Shown here piece by piece: positions 697-49,500 of a stretch of 64,000 bases of DNA. The stretch spans positions 868,001-932,000 of the forward strand of contig JAQGEQ010000011.1 of the NCBI GenBank assembly GCA_034620365.1. The letters run 5' to 3'. This stretch comes from Pegea sp. RAD2-039. Lineage: Eukaryota > Chordata > Thaliacea > Salpida > Salpidae. The position numbers and the translations under genes are program-made. Each line of letters begins with the position of its first letter. The first letter of the stretch is position 1. The notes beneath the pieces were generated by a model. The model was not told the DNA's origin. It saw nothing but the letters and a program-made list of their open reading frames with translations, and made no database searches.

Positions 697-3600
697 AAGT
701 TTATTGAAGCAGTTTATTTTCCAATATTGTTTTTTGTTAACATCTTTTGGAAAACTCTCACAATGGAAAATTTTTCTAAAAAAAAAGAGAGAGATGAAAG
801 CATAATTAAGCTATTAAATATTCATCGAATAGTAGATAATGATATATTTTTATTACTTTTGCTTCAAGACTATTATCAACTTATTGGTAAGTTAACAAAG
901 TTATATTTGTACATAATTAAACAACTGATAGTTTTTAAAAGTTTCAAAGTATTTGTAGTTTTATAAATTTTGCTGATACAAGTCATAAAGTTGATTAAAT
1001 ACACTGTAATCAACTTTTAGAGCTTTATACGATTTATATAAGTTAGGTGTAATAGCTTTATTTGAACTATAAATTTAATTCTTTTGTGGAAATTTTAAGT
1101 TGTATTTAAAAAATTTAGTTTAAGCTAATTTAATAATTTTTAAATTATGGAAATTCTTCCATTCAACCCTAGTGCTTATTATTTTTATATAAGAAAAATA
1201 TTTAATAATTAAATTTACTTCAAAAGAAAAAGTAATCTTTCAGTCATTTATAAAATTATTAAAAACTAAATTAAAATTTGAAACTTTTTAGAAAAAGAAG
1301 AAGAAATCAGATATAAAGCATACAAAAATTCAATTCAGAGCCTACACAAGAAAAAAGAAATTAAAATTTGTAGATTTCACATCACATATAACAACATCAA
1401 ACAAATGGTGACTTTTAAATTCATCAATTGAATTATTGAAATTTCAAGTTTTTAAAGGTAGATGCTGTAGCCTGTAAAGATGTTACTGAACAAGAAGAAC
1501 TGGATTTTCGTGAAAAGTTACTCTTCAAGTTAGCTACTGATGATAATCGTCATATAAAGGTAAGGATAATCTCATACTAGTGACGTCATTATTTGCACTT
1601 TGAAACTTTCCATGTAAGAATATAGAAGAAGAGGAAAGCGACAGAATTGAAGTTTCAGACTTGACTAAAGGGAAATGTGTTCGTTTACAAGTAACTACTA
1701 GCCTCATTGTGATTGGTTGAATTTTTTTCATTAATATTTTAGCTTTTACATCAACATCTTTGGACTCTGATTTATGAAGATCCTTCAAACTCTGAGAATG
1801 ATCCTCAAAAGTAAGATCTATTTTGAACAATGATTATTTTCTCGCCTTTTTTTCTTCTCAGCAGATTGAAAAAAATCTCAAAATATCCAACTCAAGACTT
1901 TAACTGGATTCGAGTCCTTGATATCTCACTTCAAATCCCAATCTTACTGCTTTTCAAAATTTTCAAACCTTTATTAAAAGTCAGCAACAACCGAACAACT
2001 TCAATCATTCAACTTTCTTATCACAGGTGGAAACAAGGGACATAATCTTTAAAGATTACCTGAACAATCCCACCAACCATAGTGTAAATGTAGGGAAATT
2101 GCCGGAAGTGTTACGTCATCAGCTCATATTTAATCGGTTCTAATCTCATCTTCATTTGCATATAAATTTTAAATCAAATCTTCTTTATAGAAGTTATCTC
2201 TTTAATCTAAACAAGATGTTGGAGACTTTATGTTTTATGGGAATTATTTCATTTGCTCCTCATAAGAATATCAACATCTCAAATGTAAAGATCAAATAAT
2301 CAGATCTTGAAAAAAGAAACTTAGTTTTTCATTTCAGAAATTAGTTTATCTCCATCGTAATCTATGTCTGAAAGACACAAGAAGTCTTCTGCGAGATCAA
2401 CAGTTGATGAAGAGATGGGAGAAAGATGTGAAGAGCTTCTGGTTACAATTAAAAGATATCGCGTTCTCAACCCCTGCTGGTATCTTTAGATCAAATCCTA
2501 AGTAGCCGATCTTTAATTATTAATCTTTCAGCATATTTCAAACAAACAAGAAATAAAAAACAAAAACCTTCATCAATTCTAAACCAATTTCTGAAGACAC
2601 ATGTGAACAGGTTCCTCTTAAATCATGTCTTCGTTTTCTTCATTTCAATTTTCAGGGAAACGATACAAGTTGATGATGATGGGGTAATCCCCGGGGACGG
2701 ACTAGGGGCTTGTGGATTCGATTCTTCGCTGTTTATACATCGCTTCTCTAACTGGACTTCATTAAATTACAACGAGATTCAGGTTAGGAAAATTTTGATT
2801 ATGATCTGGATGCTGATCTTCATCTACAGGTAACAGAAGATGTAAAGTTTAAGAAAAAGTTGAATGAAAATGAAAATTGTAAAACGAGTTTAAATTTCGA
2901 GATTGTTCTCGATGAGAATCAAAACAGAAGTGAAAGAGTGAAGGTAGAAAAGTAGTAAAGAAGTAGATGGTTGTTAAAGGTTTTTGTTTGAAGGGAGGTA
3001 GAGGTCGGAAGAGAAAAATTCTTAAAGATAACCAGAAAGCTAAAAAGAAATTAAAACTCGAAGCTGAAGATGGAATCCAGAAAGCCGAAGATGGAATCCA
3101 AGAAGCCGAAGATGGAATCCAGAAAGCCGAAGATGGAATCCAAGAAGCCGAAGATGGAATCCAAGAAGCCGAAAGTGGAATCCAGAAAGCCGAAGATGGA
3201 ATCCAGAAAGTGGAAGATGAAATCCAAGAAGCCGAAGATGGAATCCAGAAAGTGGAAGATGGAATCCAAGAAGCCGAAGATGAAATCCAGAAAGCCGAAG
3301 ATGGAATCCAAGAAGCCGAAGATGAAATCCAGAAAGTGGAAGATGAAATCCAAGAAGCTGAAGATGGAATCCAGAGAAGTGGAAAAGTTGCCCCAAAAGT
3401 TGGGAAAAGACTACAGCAAAGAGCAAAATTTGATCGACAAGATGATGAATTTCTTCTCAAGATCTTCGTATGTTCTCAAGTTATTCAGACACAAGTAAGA
3501 TGAGTTTTTATCTTTATTGGAAAAGATTAAATGATGATTACTTTAAAGATGGGGATCGACAAGATGAAGTTGAATGTGATTACATGGGACTCGATCCTTA

Positions 3601-40588: not shown

Positions 40589-43500
40589 TCATACATAATA
40601 TTCTTTTTCATCCTTGCCAATAGGCCCGCCATTTCTTGGTATCATTTCATCACCTCCTTTGTTTATCATTTTTTTCTTGCTTTTTTCGTCATTTCGACCT
40701 TCACTGTCAGCGACGTTGTAAACATACCTCTCAACTCTTCTACCTCTCCCATTTTTACTTTTGTAGCAGTATATACAAGCAATTAGGCCAGCTACTGCAA
40801 GAGTTGCAGCAGAAGCAACTCCAGCAATCATGGCTCGCTTAATAGGTGCTAATGTAATAGGTATATTTCCAGTACCATTAACAATACCATCTAAAAGAAT
40901 TCATTTCCACCGTTTGTTGTTGGTCTTTATGTTAATAATATATATTTTTTTAATTAAACATTATTCTTAAAAAGTTACTTTATCCATTCTATTATATTAT
41001 TAAATAGATTTTGATTTCTAACTTTGTTGATTTTTTTTTCAAGTTTTAAAAAATGTTTTAATTTTATATTTATTTTGTGTATAAGCTTTCTTTGAAATTG
41101 ATAAGTCATAACTAACCATTATTACAACGACCAGCTTTGCAGGTTGTATCACCCAAAGTTGTCTATAAAAGATATTTAATGGTTTTAAAACTATAAAGTT
41201 GAGGTAAAGACTACCTCCAGTAGATTAAGATCATCTGAAGTAGGAAGTGGGGAAGAAACAAAAGGAGAAACTGTTGTCGCAGGTTCAGGGAAGCCAACGG
41301 TCTGCACATCACCAAAAGTTTTGACACTCTCATCATCTAAAAGTTTCAGAGTTTCAGATAAAGACTCAAATTTGGTTTGGTGTCTCACTTGAATTTAGCA
41401 ACTCGAAGGGTTTGACATCATTATAAAAAACACGAGACATTTTACCACGAAAAGGCATATCGATGGTGTAAGAAGTTGTGTTAGAATTACTGGGTTTGTA
41501 TTTGGGTGAAAGTATTCCACCAATTTCTATACTAGATTGGGTATTGAAAACGGTATTTATTGAATCTGCAGTTAGAATATAATTACAATGTTATGAAATA
41601 ATGTAGAAAATTGAAAGGAAAAAACTACTTTTCAGTCAGTTTTAAAAGACTTAACCTATTAACAAAGTAAAGTATATTTTTTGGTGATAACAGAAACTAT
41701 AAGTTCAAGGCAACAGTATACGAATTTCAGAAATTGTTCAAGTAGCTGCCTGATTTTATAAAGAATTCAAAAGAATGAAGTTCAGACTGTTTCTTCGTTT
41801 TTGATGTCTTAAGAAATCGTTCGAATGCTGATCAAACAATTGTTATCAAAGTTAAAAAAAATTGATTCCAAGGTTAATTTTAATTTTGTAACTTTTACAA
41901 ATGGTAGTCTCTTTTGTTTGAAAGAAGTTGTTTTATCATTTCTGATTGTTATTTGTGAAGCTGATGTCATTTTCATACATTTAAATCAGACAATATTTAT
42001 AGAAAAAATATTTAACAAGCTTTTACAAACTCTACAAATGGAATTATTTTTGTTTGTAATTTATAAAAGTAGAAGTTAAAGCTGTTATTACTTTTAAGAC
42101 AAAAATATGTTTGATTTTTTGCATTATATAGTATTTAATCATCTTAGGGTTAGTTAAATATTTACTCTTTGAAAATAAGCTTAAAGTTCAATGTTAAATC
42201 ATCTTTCAGATTACTTGTTATTGAAAAAGATGACAGATGAAATATGTTGAAGATATTTTGAAACAAAAAGACAATACTTGTCTAAAAAGTAATTTATACA
42301 TGCATATTAACTTATTTCAAAAATGTTAGTACTTGCAAGAGAAAATGAAGTTTGTTACACTGTTAGATTGGTTATTGTTTGCTTCGTACCGACCTTTATT
42401 GTTTAACCACGATTTCACTACTGGTTGCGTTACGGAGGGTATGGCTGCCATTACCAGGGCAGCCAGGGAATTCGAACCTCCTACATATAACAAGAATAAA
42501 AACGAGAAGACGTGAAAAGCACTACATATATTATATAGCGCGGGCAAACAAGCATTTGAAATTTTTTATGTTGCTGTTAGAACGAGTTAGTTAGTAAATC
42601 ATCACAATAAATACAAAATAGCTGCGTCTGTATTTTAATATTTACTTTGTTAGTTAGTTATGGGTTTGATCATGATTACTAAGCATTTGTGTGGCAAAAC
42701 ACCAAACAAAAACACAGACAACTATGTTTGGATGCTCTACATCAAAAAGAATTTGATATAATCTTAAAAAAAAACTATATCTTCTTTATCTCACATTCAA
42801 GATACTTTTTGGTAAATTGTGTTTTGTAAGATATATAAAAGGATGGATTAGTAATTAAAATCAAAACTGATAATCATTTCAGAAAGTTTATTTTTAGTAT
42901 TTTCAAAGTTTTCATTTGGGCCAGCTTATTTGCTACATTAATTCTTTTAATAAGTATTTTAAAATAACATATTTATCATGTAAATAGGTTTCTATTTTGT
43001 TTAACATTTTTCAATTAAACAAAACTAGTAACAAACGAATGACAACTTTTTGTAAAATTTCTTATGATTTTAAATAAATTTGTTTTTGTTATCTTAATTG
43101 CTAAGAGCCTAGTAAATCTTACACTCAATAGTTATCCTTAAAGTTATATGAGTTTTTATGGGAGCTTCTATTGAAATAATTTAGGACACATTTGATGAGG
43201 CACAAGAGTTTTATGAATTCTTTATCTTTGCAAGCTGATTAGTACTTTAAACCATTAAATTGTATTTTTCTGTTTGATCGATTGAGGAAAACTTTGAAGA
43301 TTAATTTCGTTTAGAGTTTTCATAAAATATTTCAAATTTTTGCTTTCAGATTTTTCTGCTTTACTACACTATAAAAAAGTTTGCTTAATATGTCTAGTTT
43401 TGAAAGTAAGTAAAACGAAAGTAAACTTTTAAAAAGTTTGTTTGGTAAATATCAAATATTTGTACTTATTTTAGATAATAGAAATAACTTTTTAGGATAT

Positions 43501-46500
43501 ATTTTTAGCTAAAACAGATTTAAAGCACTTCATTACTGGTTTCAAACTTACGTTCCTTCGACTTTCGAGGCGGCCAGTCATTCACTTGCATTGTAGCGTT
43601 TGTATAATGTCTTTTAATAGCAACATTGTGTAGATTACCATCAGCTACAGAAATCTCCTCTTGAAGTCGAATCTCTTTTACTCCCACATTATAAGTCAGA
43701 GTTAGTTTGCCGTTTTCCTGAGCAATACAACATGTTTAAACACCTTGGAAAAAACAAGTTTAATATTAATTTGAACAATGTGCTCATGCAAATTCTTCAC
43801 AGGCAAAAGGTGTTTTTTTGCACATTAAATTGATTATTTTGTGAAAATTTTTTATGGTAACAAAATGTCTCGGTACAAATTATAAAAACAAAGATCATGC
43901 AAAAATGAGTCTGCTCATCTATACAAGTACTAAGTAAAATAACTAAGTAAACCGCAAGATTATAAACTCATAAACATTTATATCGTTTGCAGTTTCTTTA
44001 GTCTTTTCTAAATTCTAAGCAGTAACTTCAACTGACTTTAGTTTTAATTATTCTATAACAAATTCATCAACAAAAAATTGTTTTCAAATCGTAGAAATAA
44101 GTTTGAAAAATATTTACTTGCGTAAAACTCAAATTATAAAAATATAAAACTAAAATGAATAATTGGAATTTAATTAAGTTGTAAGAAGGTTTCTTTTTAT
44201 TTTTTACTCTTGTTTATATTTGCAGTACAGAAAATTTAAAAATCCAACACAGAAAATTTGAAATATTGGAATATGTACTTATCAACTTTGCAATCATCAA
44301 TCTGAAAAATTTGTAACAAGATGGCGTATATGTAAATACCTCAAAAAAATAAGACTACAAACTCTTCATCAAATTTACACGTCATTTTTCCAGTCTTCTT
44401 TCGGCAGTTTTAATATTTCATTTTAAACAATACTTTTAATACCTTGCACCATACAAGTTTGAAAAAAAAAACAACTAAAATAATTGAAGATAAAAAATAT
44501 TTGATGAAAAAAGTTACAAGTTAAAATAAATTACAAAAGTTAATTAGATAGTTTCTATTTGATACGGTCAATTGAAAAAGCTGCTTTACTTAAACAGGTT
44601 TGGTCTTCTAATGTAATTCTTCAGTTTAATTGGCTAACCGATTTATGAAAACACATTTTAAGTTATAAATATAAGTTTCATTCAATTTAGTGGTAGCCAA
44701 TAAAATGCCCGAAATATTTTGACACGCAAAAATTTTTAGTTTTTAAAAAGAGCTTAAAAAGCTAAAAAAACAAATTAAAAGTTTTGCGAAAAGAGAGAAC
44801 TAAAAACTAAAGTAGAAATGAAAAAGTTTCAACACTAATGTTAGCTTAATTATTTTAAAATAAAAAATATATCTCCAATAATCTCTTTTTTAACAAATAC
44901 TTGCAATTGACAGCTGGTTCTTTCACCTGGTAGAAAATTGATCCAGCCGGCAGATGTAAACTAACTAGTAAATCAACCAGCATACTAACCAGAAAACTAG
45001 TCAATGCATTAGCCAGTATACCAAAAGGTAAACAAGCAAGTAGTAGCTAGTAAACCAATCGGTAAACCAGCTAGTGAAGAGCAAGAATTCAGTTTCAGCC
45101 AGCATACAAACACAGCCGCAACACAGCGAACAGCGAGAGAATATTTTGTAGCAACTTGACAAACTCTGCTTTTGTTTATCTACAACACTGACGACAAGAA
45201 TGCGCCGATGGTTCGTTGCAGCTAGCCTTGTGACTCTTGCTTATATCGAGAATACAATGCACAACAAGAGCTGTCTCACAAGTTGCAACTTCATGAATTC
45301 ACGAGAAGTTAGAGATCGGATAAGAACAATTGTTGAGTTTGGTTCCATTGAGTCGTTAGTTTCAAATGACACATTCAACGTATCAACTCTTGAACTAATC
45401 CATTTCTGGCTTGATGCTTCTTTTTTTTCTAGACTTCCAAGAACCACTCCACGATTGAAGACAACATATTCTCTGCTCATCTGATTAGCTGCTGAGGGAT
45501 AGAAACGGTTTTTACTACGATGTTACAAAAGCGCTGTAGATAAACATCCTGAAATTCCTGCCTCGCTTCCCTAACCTTCGAATATCTGATCTGTTTTCGC
45601 TCTCAAGTATGTTATGACGTCTACACTTGGCTCAATTACTCACGATTGTTAGTTTGAAAAAGTCACCCAAAGGTTCCTTGCCCTTGACGAAGACCAGGGC
45701 TGCATCCTTGGACGTGGTTTGAAACATCAAGTTCAGAGTATCAGTCCGTGTGCTGGGGTATTTGGACCAGTGGTAGATGACAACTCCACCCGAAGTAGAG
45801 GTGTTTGCGCCAAACAAACACCCTGGTCCGTCTGCAGTGTGACGTCATCACGGCGTACGTACATCGATCAGTTAATTGATATTTATTTATCGAAAAGTTT
45901 AAAAGTTTCTTGATTTTAGTGAAGATTTTAGTGACTTTGGTGGTGCTTATTGCCAAATGTTGATAAATTTGTTTCTTTTTTACATAATGTTTAATTAATT
46001 AGTGATTTAATGTTTATTTACATGTAAAATACTTATCAATTTTTTAAGTGATAAAAGTTATACTAAAACATGCTGTGAGATGATCTTATCATTTTGTTAA
46101 ACAGATATTTAATTTATCTTTGACAATGCCAAGCAGAAAGTCTAGTAAGATGACTGAGGGATTCAATTGGGCTTTCAACAGATTTCAATTTGTTAGCAAC
46201 TTGCTTGAATTTTGTTGTACATGCAAAGCTAGGCTATCTTTAATAACCACAACATTCAGCTTATACTAAAAATTTGATTAAAAATGTTTTACTTATGCTG
46301 AAAAACGCAAAATGTTTAAGAGACAAATTGCTTTTAGATATTCTTAAGAATGATACAAATAGATTTGATTTAAATTTAGAATTAGTTGTGGTACAGAAAA
46401 ACTAGAGAAAACTATTTGATGGACTTAGCACTTGTTTACCTGCTGCTTGTCCTTTACATCTACTATCGTCTTGTGAAGTAATTGTACTTTTTTAGCAAAT

Positions 46501-49500
46501 TTAGGTTTTAGATTTTCTTGGTTTAAATCAAAGCAAAGAGCAGAAGGAAAAAATGTTTTCTATGTTGGCTTTATGGAAGATAACTTAAGAAAAGTGAGTT
46601 TTTAGTTGTATATTTAAAATACTTTCAATGTTCTTTCACAAAACAGAAGATTGAAAAAGTTAGTCCCAACATGCGATTGACTAAACACCAAAAATATAAA
46701 AATCATAAACAACATACAACAACATGCTTCTCACCAGATACTTGACTGAAATCTAATAAAAAAATTATACTTCAATAAAAAAAGTTGAAATTTAATGTAA
46801 ACCCAGGTAAAAACTTGCTGCAAAAATCAGATATATTTTCAATAGTAAAGGACCAAGTTTGATAGACGGGTTTTATTTCAAAAACATAAATCATTTTTTG
46901 GCTTCTGAATATTTAAGATATCTTTATAGGTGATTTTGAAAAGTATAATTGTTAGACCAAATGAATTCACTTATAACAAATTCTGATCGAATTAAAATGT
47001 AGGTACGGCTTTAAATGTAAAACAAACATAATCAAGCAACTGATTAAGTTTTTATTACAAATTGTTATCACTTTTTCAAAAAAAGGTAAAAAAAACTTTA
47101 AAATTAGTTCGATTTTTCTATGAAAAATTGATTAGTCTTAAATTTCAGAATTTTGTATTACTTATCAACTATTAACTATTAATTACCTTCAATTATTTTA
47201 AGCTCTTCATGAATTTAACAAGTCATTGAGTTACAATATCTTAGATAAAATATTATCATTAAAATGAAACCAGCTCATAATGGATGTTAAATTAACTCTT
47301 TTCCAAATCTGGTATCAACAAACTAAATGGCCTCATCAATTCTAGTAGATATAATCAAATTAATCTTCAACATACTTTTAATTTTGCAGAATATTAACTA
47401 GAGTTTTACTGACTAAGTTTAAATGCGCCACAAATATGTTTAAATTGAAAATGATAAATCAAATTTTATCTGCCAGCAGTAAAAAATCTTGACTAGAGCA
47501 CTCGGATTTCAGATATGATTTGCTGAAAAAAAGAAGAACTCACGTTCACTGCAGGTTTCACCTGCATATACAGTAGTACTACAATCACATCTGTATCCTC
47601 TCCATCTTCGCTGACATTCTCCTCCGTTGATACACTTGCACTTCGCCTGGTAAGGTCCTGTGACAACAATCCACGAACACAATCACATTCAAACGCGGGT
47701 TGCATGACAACAACAAGAAAGCAAACAATGTAGAAGAAATAGGTGCAAGAGGAGGCTCTGGGTGAAGTTATTTCTGATTAGATAAGATAACTTTCAAGAT
47801 AAGTTCTAAACGTTTAATGTTTTTAAACTGAGTTGCAGCCCATAAATATCCATAAAAAAGCAAATTACAATTTGTACATATTAAAGACTTTTATAAATCA
47901 AACTTATAGATTATATTTTAATACTTTCTTTTAGTCTTGTAATTTTTCAATAATTTCAAAACTGAAACTTTAATGATATTTTAGTATAAATGTAAAAAAC
48001 TACGCCTTACAACTTGCACCTTTCTTCAACAAAGACATTTTAGTTCATGCAAATCACCCAATCAAAAGTGACGAAGCAAATCGCAGATGTTTATTTCGTC
48101 TTATTATTGAATTTATCATTTTGTCATAAGCATATATATACAAATATATATAAGTTTTCGGGCAACATTCACCAAACCAAATAACTCAAATCTTAAAATT
48201 AACATTTTATAGGTGGCTCAATTTGTGGTATCATGTTTATAAACCCCTTTGACTCAAAATAAGCCTACAAATCGGGCTGTTGCCAACTACTCGCAGTGTG
48301 AGTGTGATGGAGATCAACAATTAACAACTCACCTTGACATCCTTGTAATATAGTTCCATCTACTGGTCTTCGGTAGACACGGTTAGACATCAAATTTATT
48401 AATTTGTTATTGACTACAAATGAGCCGAAACAACCCTCGTATCCATTTCTAGAATACAGATTCTTGGGAAGTTTACTCGAGTACATATCGTTGTCAACCC
48501 CTCCAATGTAAAGGGACTCTGTAAGCACCATCATTTAATAATTGCTTAACAATTTGTATTTAGTGGTTAAAGTTACCATTTAAATATGGGGTAACTAATG
48601 CAGGGAATTCCATCGCTTTTGTGTTATTGTTAATCCACAATCTATAACAATTAGACGGCAACCTTTGGATTTTCACTTGATGCCATCTGTTGTTGTTGAT
48701 TGCGACGTCTACAGTTAAAGACTGCCAAAAATATTTGTTTCTTTAATCAGTTTCATGAAGTAAATTCTACACCAAAAAGAATCTTATTGACTCTGTACTT
48801 ACTTCAGTCTTCCCATTGGCAGCAACAAAGAAAAATAACTTTCCATTCATCAATTCAACTGCGATATAATCATTAGTTGAACCTCTATTAAACAAGATGA
48901 TTCCATCTGATACAATAGTACGAAGACTGAACGAGATGCTGAGACTTCTGCATTAAAATCATTTCATTAATTTTTAACTACTTTTTTTCTCCAGCAGTTA
49001 CCCGCCAGCTCCCAGGGCCGCTATTTTAACAAAGCTTTTAGATTCAACAAATGAGACTGGATAAGCCACTACTTCTTTTTCTTGAAGCCACGAGCTGTTA
49101 TACGAACAAGAGACTTCTCCGTAGAAACAGCTGATCAAACAAAAGCGATAATCTTCTACAAAAGTCAAATTTCTAACAACCTATCCATTAGATATTTTCC
49201 ATCAAGGACAAAGTTCTCAACTAGTCCAATTAGTGGGCCAAACAGACCATCAACACTGTTTTTTGGTGAAATAATTTTTCCAATGTGTAATTGGTCATAA
49301 GCAAGTGAAGTGTGGCCCTTTCTTAGGTCCACTTTTATGTAAGAAAATTTAGCCATTATCTAATAATTAATGAGGAAAGTAAGGGACTTACGAGCCACAA
49401 TATCTCCATCCACCTCTAATATCAGCTTTCGACTTCTTCTATGGACTCGAACCACGTGCCAGTTACCGTCAGCCAACCCTGAGCCAGCTACTAACGACTG

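Follow-up and report, generated by a model that had tools for sequence, protein, structure and literature searches.

We analysed a 64,000-nucleotide stretch of contig JAQGEQ010000011.1 of Pegea sp. RAD2-039 (positions 868,001 to 932,000; hereafter the window, on the contig that we abbreviate as C13), from an assembly of 387 contigs with a genome size of 105.7 Mb; the composition of the window is 30.6% G+C. An alpha-neurexin gene occupies the minus strand, running from an LNS1 exon that straddles the window end to the end of an EYYV tail at 40589. LamG matches occur in order along C13 and were assigned to LNS1 through LNS6, EGF-type exons lie at ~60.3, 52.5 and 47.6 kb, and the LNS1 exon has a signal-like start, as judged by eye. 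The predicted product has the full set of parts of an alpha-neurexin, with a signal peptide, six LNS and three EGF modules, a transmembrane segment and a PDZ-binding tail; the signal peptide, the transmembrane segment and the module order are by-eye calls on a gene that was not spliced whole.

Elsewhere on the minus strand of the window are what we take, by eye, to be an ABCC-type ABC transporter gene (12.6-19.1 kb) and a sideroflexin-like gene (9.6-10.5 kb). A short-period repeat at 2852-3500 has long open frames on both strands and could be either a low-complexity protein or a tandem repeat. Upstream of the neurexin gene, ~21-27 kb beyond the window end (85261-91368, counted from window base 1), there is a long array of a coding-like repeat of ~33 residues.

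The LNS6 part of the neurexin gene contains two candidate first exons, here called a and b, between an upstream EGF exon and a shared downstream LNS6 exon. The features of this region, in the order of transcription, are:

47544..47657, minus strand: EGF-C exon, upstream of the pair and common to both forms, ending in phase 1 at 47544
45644..45831, minus strand: exon a, the canonical first LNS6 exon, 188 nt, phase 1 to 0, with PSTR and LGD kept
45530..45546, minus strand: 5' arm of a 17-nt inverted pair around exon b, a candidate loop-out stem
45280..45491, minus strand: exon b, the alternative first LNS6 exon, 212 nt, phase 1 to 0, with SRE where exon a has LGD
45173..45189, minus strand: 3' arm of the 17-nt inverted pair around exon b, candidate loop-out stem
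43552..43717, minus strand: downstream shared LNS6 exon, phase 0 to 1, starting at 43717 and holding the V154 equivalent
42394..42480, minus strand: SS4-like cassette, 87 nt, phase 1 to 1, the frame being kept whether it is used or skipped
41389..41565, minus strand: end exon of LNS6 with FNTQ (N238 equivalent), its donor end placed by eye and its acceptor also scored
40589..40890, minus strand: transmembrane segment (judged by eye) and cytoplasmic tail with the EYYV terminus

An earlier note on this DNA had proposed that neighbouring exons at 45831-45644 and 45491-45280 are alternatives at the start of LNS6. These coordinates are exact, the borders are GT-AG, and both exons run from phase 1 to phase 0; the acceptor of exon b is a NAGNAG, with an alternative start at 45488 that has a much lower score. 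The note had also claimed that the frame breaks with both exons or with neither, and splicing six forms in silico bears this out. When a and b are joined, a stop follows after 4 codons of exon b (QLIR), and when both are skipped it follows after 9 codons. With a alone or b alone, the frame is open through the joined exons, with or without the 87-nt cassette. The frame of exon b is itself open over 93 codons. We thus find adjacent exons of equal phase, exactly one of which keeps the frame, as is characteristic of tandem mutually exclusive exons, and a and b are likely to be a real, frame-enforced pair. Because the gene has an intron of ~60 nt (between 57320 and 57257), the 152-nt length of the a-b intron alone should not block a-b splicing; the visible enforcer of exclusion appears to be the reading frame, which would act through decay or truncation of the product.

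The cassette at 42394..42480 we liken by position and length to vertebrate SS4. A switch separate from SS4 had been claimed, and the layout agrees, with the frame-locked pair at the LNS6 start and the SS4-like 87-nt cassette standing apart from it at 42480-42394. Combining the cassette with exons a and b within one LNS6, four combinations would be allowed.

The two exons share an origin. Local alignment of exon b with exon a gives a score of 49 (z 7.1), which none of 5000 shuffles reaches (0 of 2000 in another run). Against the LNS1-LNS5 stretches of the same gene, z lies between -0.1 and 1.8, those from LNS4 and LNS5 being short (33 and 36 residues), and mammalian NRXN1 LNS6 gives z 2.5. Because exon b is so much nearer to exon a than to either NRXN1 or LNS1-5, it was evidently copied from the LNS6 exon within this lineage. 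Derivation from another LNS domain was considered and is ruled out, with z at most 1.8 against the LNS1-5 stretches.

The similarity between a and b sits in the last ~40 residues, where only 1 of 5000 shuffles does as well. For the first ~30 residues of b no match could be demonstrated, either to exon a (1679 of 5000 shuffles as good) or to NRXN1 (1164 of 5000). The suggestion that both exons encode the same first strands is therefore borne out in the last ~40 residues only. No third copy was found in a profile search of stop-to-stop frames of at least 20 residues on both strands of 93 kb, and among 347 frames no other adjacent duplicate exons of the gene were detected at E 0.05; besides a-b, the matches in this comparison were to modules of the LNS or EGF type, plus a single weak pair in introns. 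In genome-wide searches exons a and b each find themselves only, but the b query missed even a, such that diverged copies could escape, and the genome could still hold a second neurexin gene.

Both exons extend the domain encoded by the shared exons. By themselves the shared LNS6 exons score 59.9 bits with Laminin_G_2 (cassette skipped); adding a raises this to 80.4 and adding b to 73.7, a gain of 20.5 bits from a versus 13.8 from b. With a, the best PDB match of LNS6 is Neurexin-1-alpha (3qcw_A, E 1.4e-38, shared exons included); with b it is again 3qcw_A (E 8.2e-24), in a match that starts at b residue 33 and includes the shared exons. Among solved structures, LNS6 is thus nearest to neurexin LNS6. 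The form with b also has two below-cut-off matches to unrelated bacterial families, PF05504 (19.5 bits, cut-off 23.6) and PF14041 (14.5 bits, cut-off 25). AlphaFold predictions on single exon peptides had mean pLDDT of 45.7 and 52.0, too poor for use.

Excerpts of PMC2570956 give 13 neurexin residues as buried by neuroligin and a calcium site with D137 and N238. Seven of these 13 interface residues (N103, P106, S107, T108, R109, S132 and L135) fall in the duplicated exon; we set D137 at the LGD of NRXN1, and the letters for all seven agree with this placement. In the alignment, exon a retains P106, S107, T108, R109, L135 and D137, and differs at N103 and S132. Exon b retains S107 and R109, and so part of the edge is unchanged; an excerpt of PMC12985673 describes the R109 contact as filling a neuroligin cavity. 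T108 is Ser in exon b, P106 is Ile and D137 is Glu, and the L135-G136 pair is lost or replaced (Ser/Arg), with the identity of the missing residue depending on the alignment; the N103 and S132 equivalents in b are ambiguous. The shared exons preserve V154 and N238 and have Val at I236, Thr at S239 and Ser at R232 (by eye). With Ser at the R232 equivalent whichever exon is used, the interface departs in part from the vertebrate one even in the exon a form.

The earlier note contrasted LGD in a with SRE in b, and the alignment has this change at the equivalent of NRXN1 D137; the Asn said to be retained is present in FNTQ. The exon a isoform has both calcium-site residues, Asp at 137 (LGD) and Asn at 238 (FNTQ), and the exon b isoform keeps Asn 238 and has Glu, not Asp, at 137, thereby departing from the Asp/Asn pair. 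The further proposal was of an altered or absent calcium-dependent face. An altered edge is well founded in the sequence, but abolition of the calcium site is too strong a claim, as Glu is still acidic. Glu can also bind Ca2+. Other interface changes in b may matter as much as that at D137, and a changed ligand edge in the exon b isoform is plausible.

We consider it probable that the first LNS6 exon was duplicated in tandem long ago, giving rise to two exons that are spliced mutually exclusively, with exon b providing a second ligand switch besides SS4. Exclusion would be enforced at the level of the product, in that each exon shifts phase 1 to 0 and exactly one would be needed for a full-length neurexin. 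Exon a would yield the canonical LNS6. Exon b would yield an LNS6 in which the beta-sandwich core is the same but the N-terminal stretch differs, one loop is longer by three residues and the neuroligin/Ca2+ rim is changed, with P106 changed to Ile, L135-G136 lost or replaced, and D137 changed to Glu; choosing exon b would then be the second LNS6 ligand switch. The expression of exon b, its exclusivity in cells, its fold and its effect on ligands we infer from the DNA. A more specific version, in which a frame-locked switch between ancient duplicates exchanges the acidic residue of the calcium site together with much of the neuroligin edge, giving two LNS6 types with different partners, with exon b perhaps looped out by the 17-nt stem, is put forward tentatively, as falling somewhat short of probable.

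The pair could instead be truly exclusive and yet neutral or merely tuning with regard to calcium and neuroligin, with Glu replacing Asp as ligand and the consequences falling on folding, stability, glycosylation or some other partner. The exchange of Asp for Glu is conservative, S107 and R109 persist in b, the salt-bridge residue R232 is already Ser with either exon (by eye), honeybee neurexin likewise has Ser at L135 (in an excerpt of PMC2570956), and there are three N-x-S/T sequons in exon b compared to one in exon a. We nonetheless think this explanation unlikely, in that P106, L135/G136 and D137 are all changed together.

We also asked how the proposed switch fares if exon b is simply no longer functional, a dead or decaying duplicate that has lost its splicing. 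Of the 39 codons aligned between a and b, 13 encode identical residues, 10 of them with different codons, and the differences by codon position 1/2/3 are 26/12/25. Synonymous sites are saturated over these 39 codons (pS 0.85), with pN at 0.44, a value biased downward by picking the alignment on protein similarity. The open frame of exon b is retained in 0.4% of 20000 composition shuffles. Its codon score (0.126) exceeds the best (-0.10) of 80 stop-free intron windows, from 4144 windows examined, and falls near the low end of the range of 16 training exon pieces (0.02-0.68), each of which was part of the training set used to score it; both codon and splice training excluded exons a and b, and 10% of stop-free composition shuffles reach the exon b score. 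The lower codon score of b, its unalignable N-terminal part and a weak donor are what a dying exon might have. Despite saturated synonymous sites, however, b keeps GT-AG borders and matching phases around an open frame with recognisable core residues, which would not be expected of an unconstrained copy so old. We regard a dead duplicate as improbable, and exon b reads as an old copy held under protein-level constraint.

The donor was scored with a splice matrix based on those junctions of the gene with clear protein continuity, 14 donors and 14 acceptors; others, including the LNS1 donor, EGF-A and most of LNS4, were left out. Donor a scores 9.8 bits and donor b (CTT/GTGAGA) 2.7 bits, in comparison to 3.4-11.9 for the 14 other donors when each is left out in turn, such that donor b is the weakest of those scored, under all 14 others. 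Acceptors a and b score 2.0 and 3.6, with the other acceptors at 1.6-12.2. Among 683 intronic GT sites, 3 score at least as high as donor a and 99 at least as high as donor b; among 718 intronic AG sites, 124 equal or exceed acceptor a and 85 acceptor b. A weak acceptor with a strong donor in a, and a fair acceptor with the weakest donor in b, would fit regulated exons, and decay would fit too.

The 17-nt inverted pair around exon b has a perfect 12-nt core, and its arms are intronic. The predicted fold uses this pair (z -1.56; 6 of 100 shuffles do as well). Of 2000 Markov sequences, 13 contain a perfect 12-nt inverted pair with such spacing, and of 20000 random window intervals, 361 have flanks of this kind. 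The stem was chosen post hoc from 30 inverted pairs, and a loop-out stem enclosing exon b is a lead only. YCAY counts are close to expectation (24 vs 22.4, and 12 vs 18.5). TGCATG is unremarkable, with one occurrence in the intron upstream (matched by 622 of 2000 Markov sequences) and two downstream (155 of 2000). GCATG is somewhat frequent upstream, with four occurrences (21 of 2000), and there are two downstream (521 of 2000).

A different role for exon b would be that of a poison exon or truncation switch, in which inclusion of both exons or neither leads to an early stop, and hence to decay, or to a soluble neurexin that terminates inside LNS6 or ahead of it. The stops after 4 codons (a+b) and 9 codons (neither) would serve for this, and excerpts of PMC2570956 describe honeybee AmNrxI-B, a natural isoform with an incomplete LNS6 and without a membrane anchor. 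Such a switch would have no need of a LamG-like protein sequence, yet b has a constrained frame that raises the domain score by 13.8 bits, and we hold this reading to be similarly improbable to that of a dead duplicate.

The intron before exon a includes a short hydrophobic ATG frame of 33 codons with a phase-1 GT (46715-46639, minus strand); it is a possible beta-type start, although its presence by chance in AT-rich sequence is quite likely. That exon b belongs to a beta-like or gamma-like transcript from an internal promoter, rather than being an alternative in the alpha transcript, is very improbable: vertebrate beta-neurexins consist of LNS6 onward only (PMC6856630, in excerpt) and the 33-codon frame with its phase-1 GT at 46715-46639 would suit such a start, but such frames can be chance in AT-rich introns and the exon b acceptor is in phase with EGF-C.

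A possible partner for the neurexin is encoded on the same contig, where a neuroligin-like gene lies at C13:721-736 kb (C13:721001-737000), ~170 kb from the neurexin gene. One of its exons reads FGSGAG at the catalytic serine motif, with Gly for the catalytic Ser. The nine best solved-structure matches of this exon are neuroligins (best E 6.6e-14), followed by bile-salt lipase (4.8e-12), and the downstream frames include a stretch that by eye has a transmembrane look. The serine motif scan covered 20 loci of 79 COesterase matches, and the genome may contain further neuroligins. We infer that this neuroligin-like protein would bind the neurexin described here.

The proposed a/b switch resembles several known systems. 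Like neurexin SS4, it is alternative splicing within LNS6 that would be able to alter the neuroligin-binding rim, and the gene has an SS4-like 87-nt cassette as well; SS4, however, is an insert that is used or skipped, whereas here a whole exon is swapped for another, with the calcium-site acidic residue aboard. At the vertebrate beta-neurexin start there is likewise variation at the entry to LNS6, although the beta form is the product of an internal promoter and its LNS6 core exon is unchanged. Tandem mutually exclusive exons such as SNAP25 exon 5 and the Dscam arrays (abstracts of PMC2581893 and PMC1397879) are similarly neighbouring, homologous and of equal phase, with one used at a time; unlike pairs of that type, exons a and b have lengths that are not multiples of three, so that the frame itself would enforce the choice. 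The honeybee isoforms AmNrxI-A and AmNrxI-B also differ in LNS6, among the many splice forms reported for honeybee neurexin I, which arise by alternative 3' exons and exon skipping; the excerpts of PMC2570956 mention no duplicated LNS6 exon, and the term 'mutually exclusive' is absent from that paper. In the literature searched, mostly papers outside subscription, no title or abstract among those listed reports a duplicated or mutually exclusive LNS6 exon pair in a neurexin. Tandem mutually exclusive exons are a known kind, and it is their place in neurexin LNS6 that would be new.

The majority of known neurexin ligands attach to LNS6 or LNS2. According to excerpts of a 2025 review (PMC12665717), extensive alternative splicing appears to be exclusive to vertebrate neurexins, in contrast to the many honeybee forms reported in PMC2570956. 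A divergent animal neurexin that combines an SS4-like cassette with an old either-or exon at its ligand edge would represent a separate way of choosing partners. LNS6a and LNS6b would also provide a natural pair with which to test the influence of the D137 position and its neighbours on calcium dependence.
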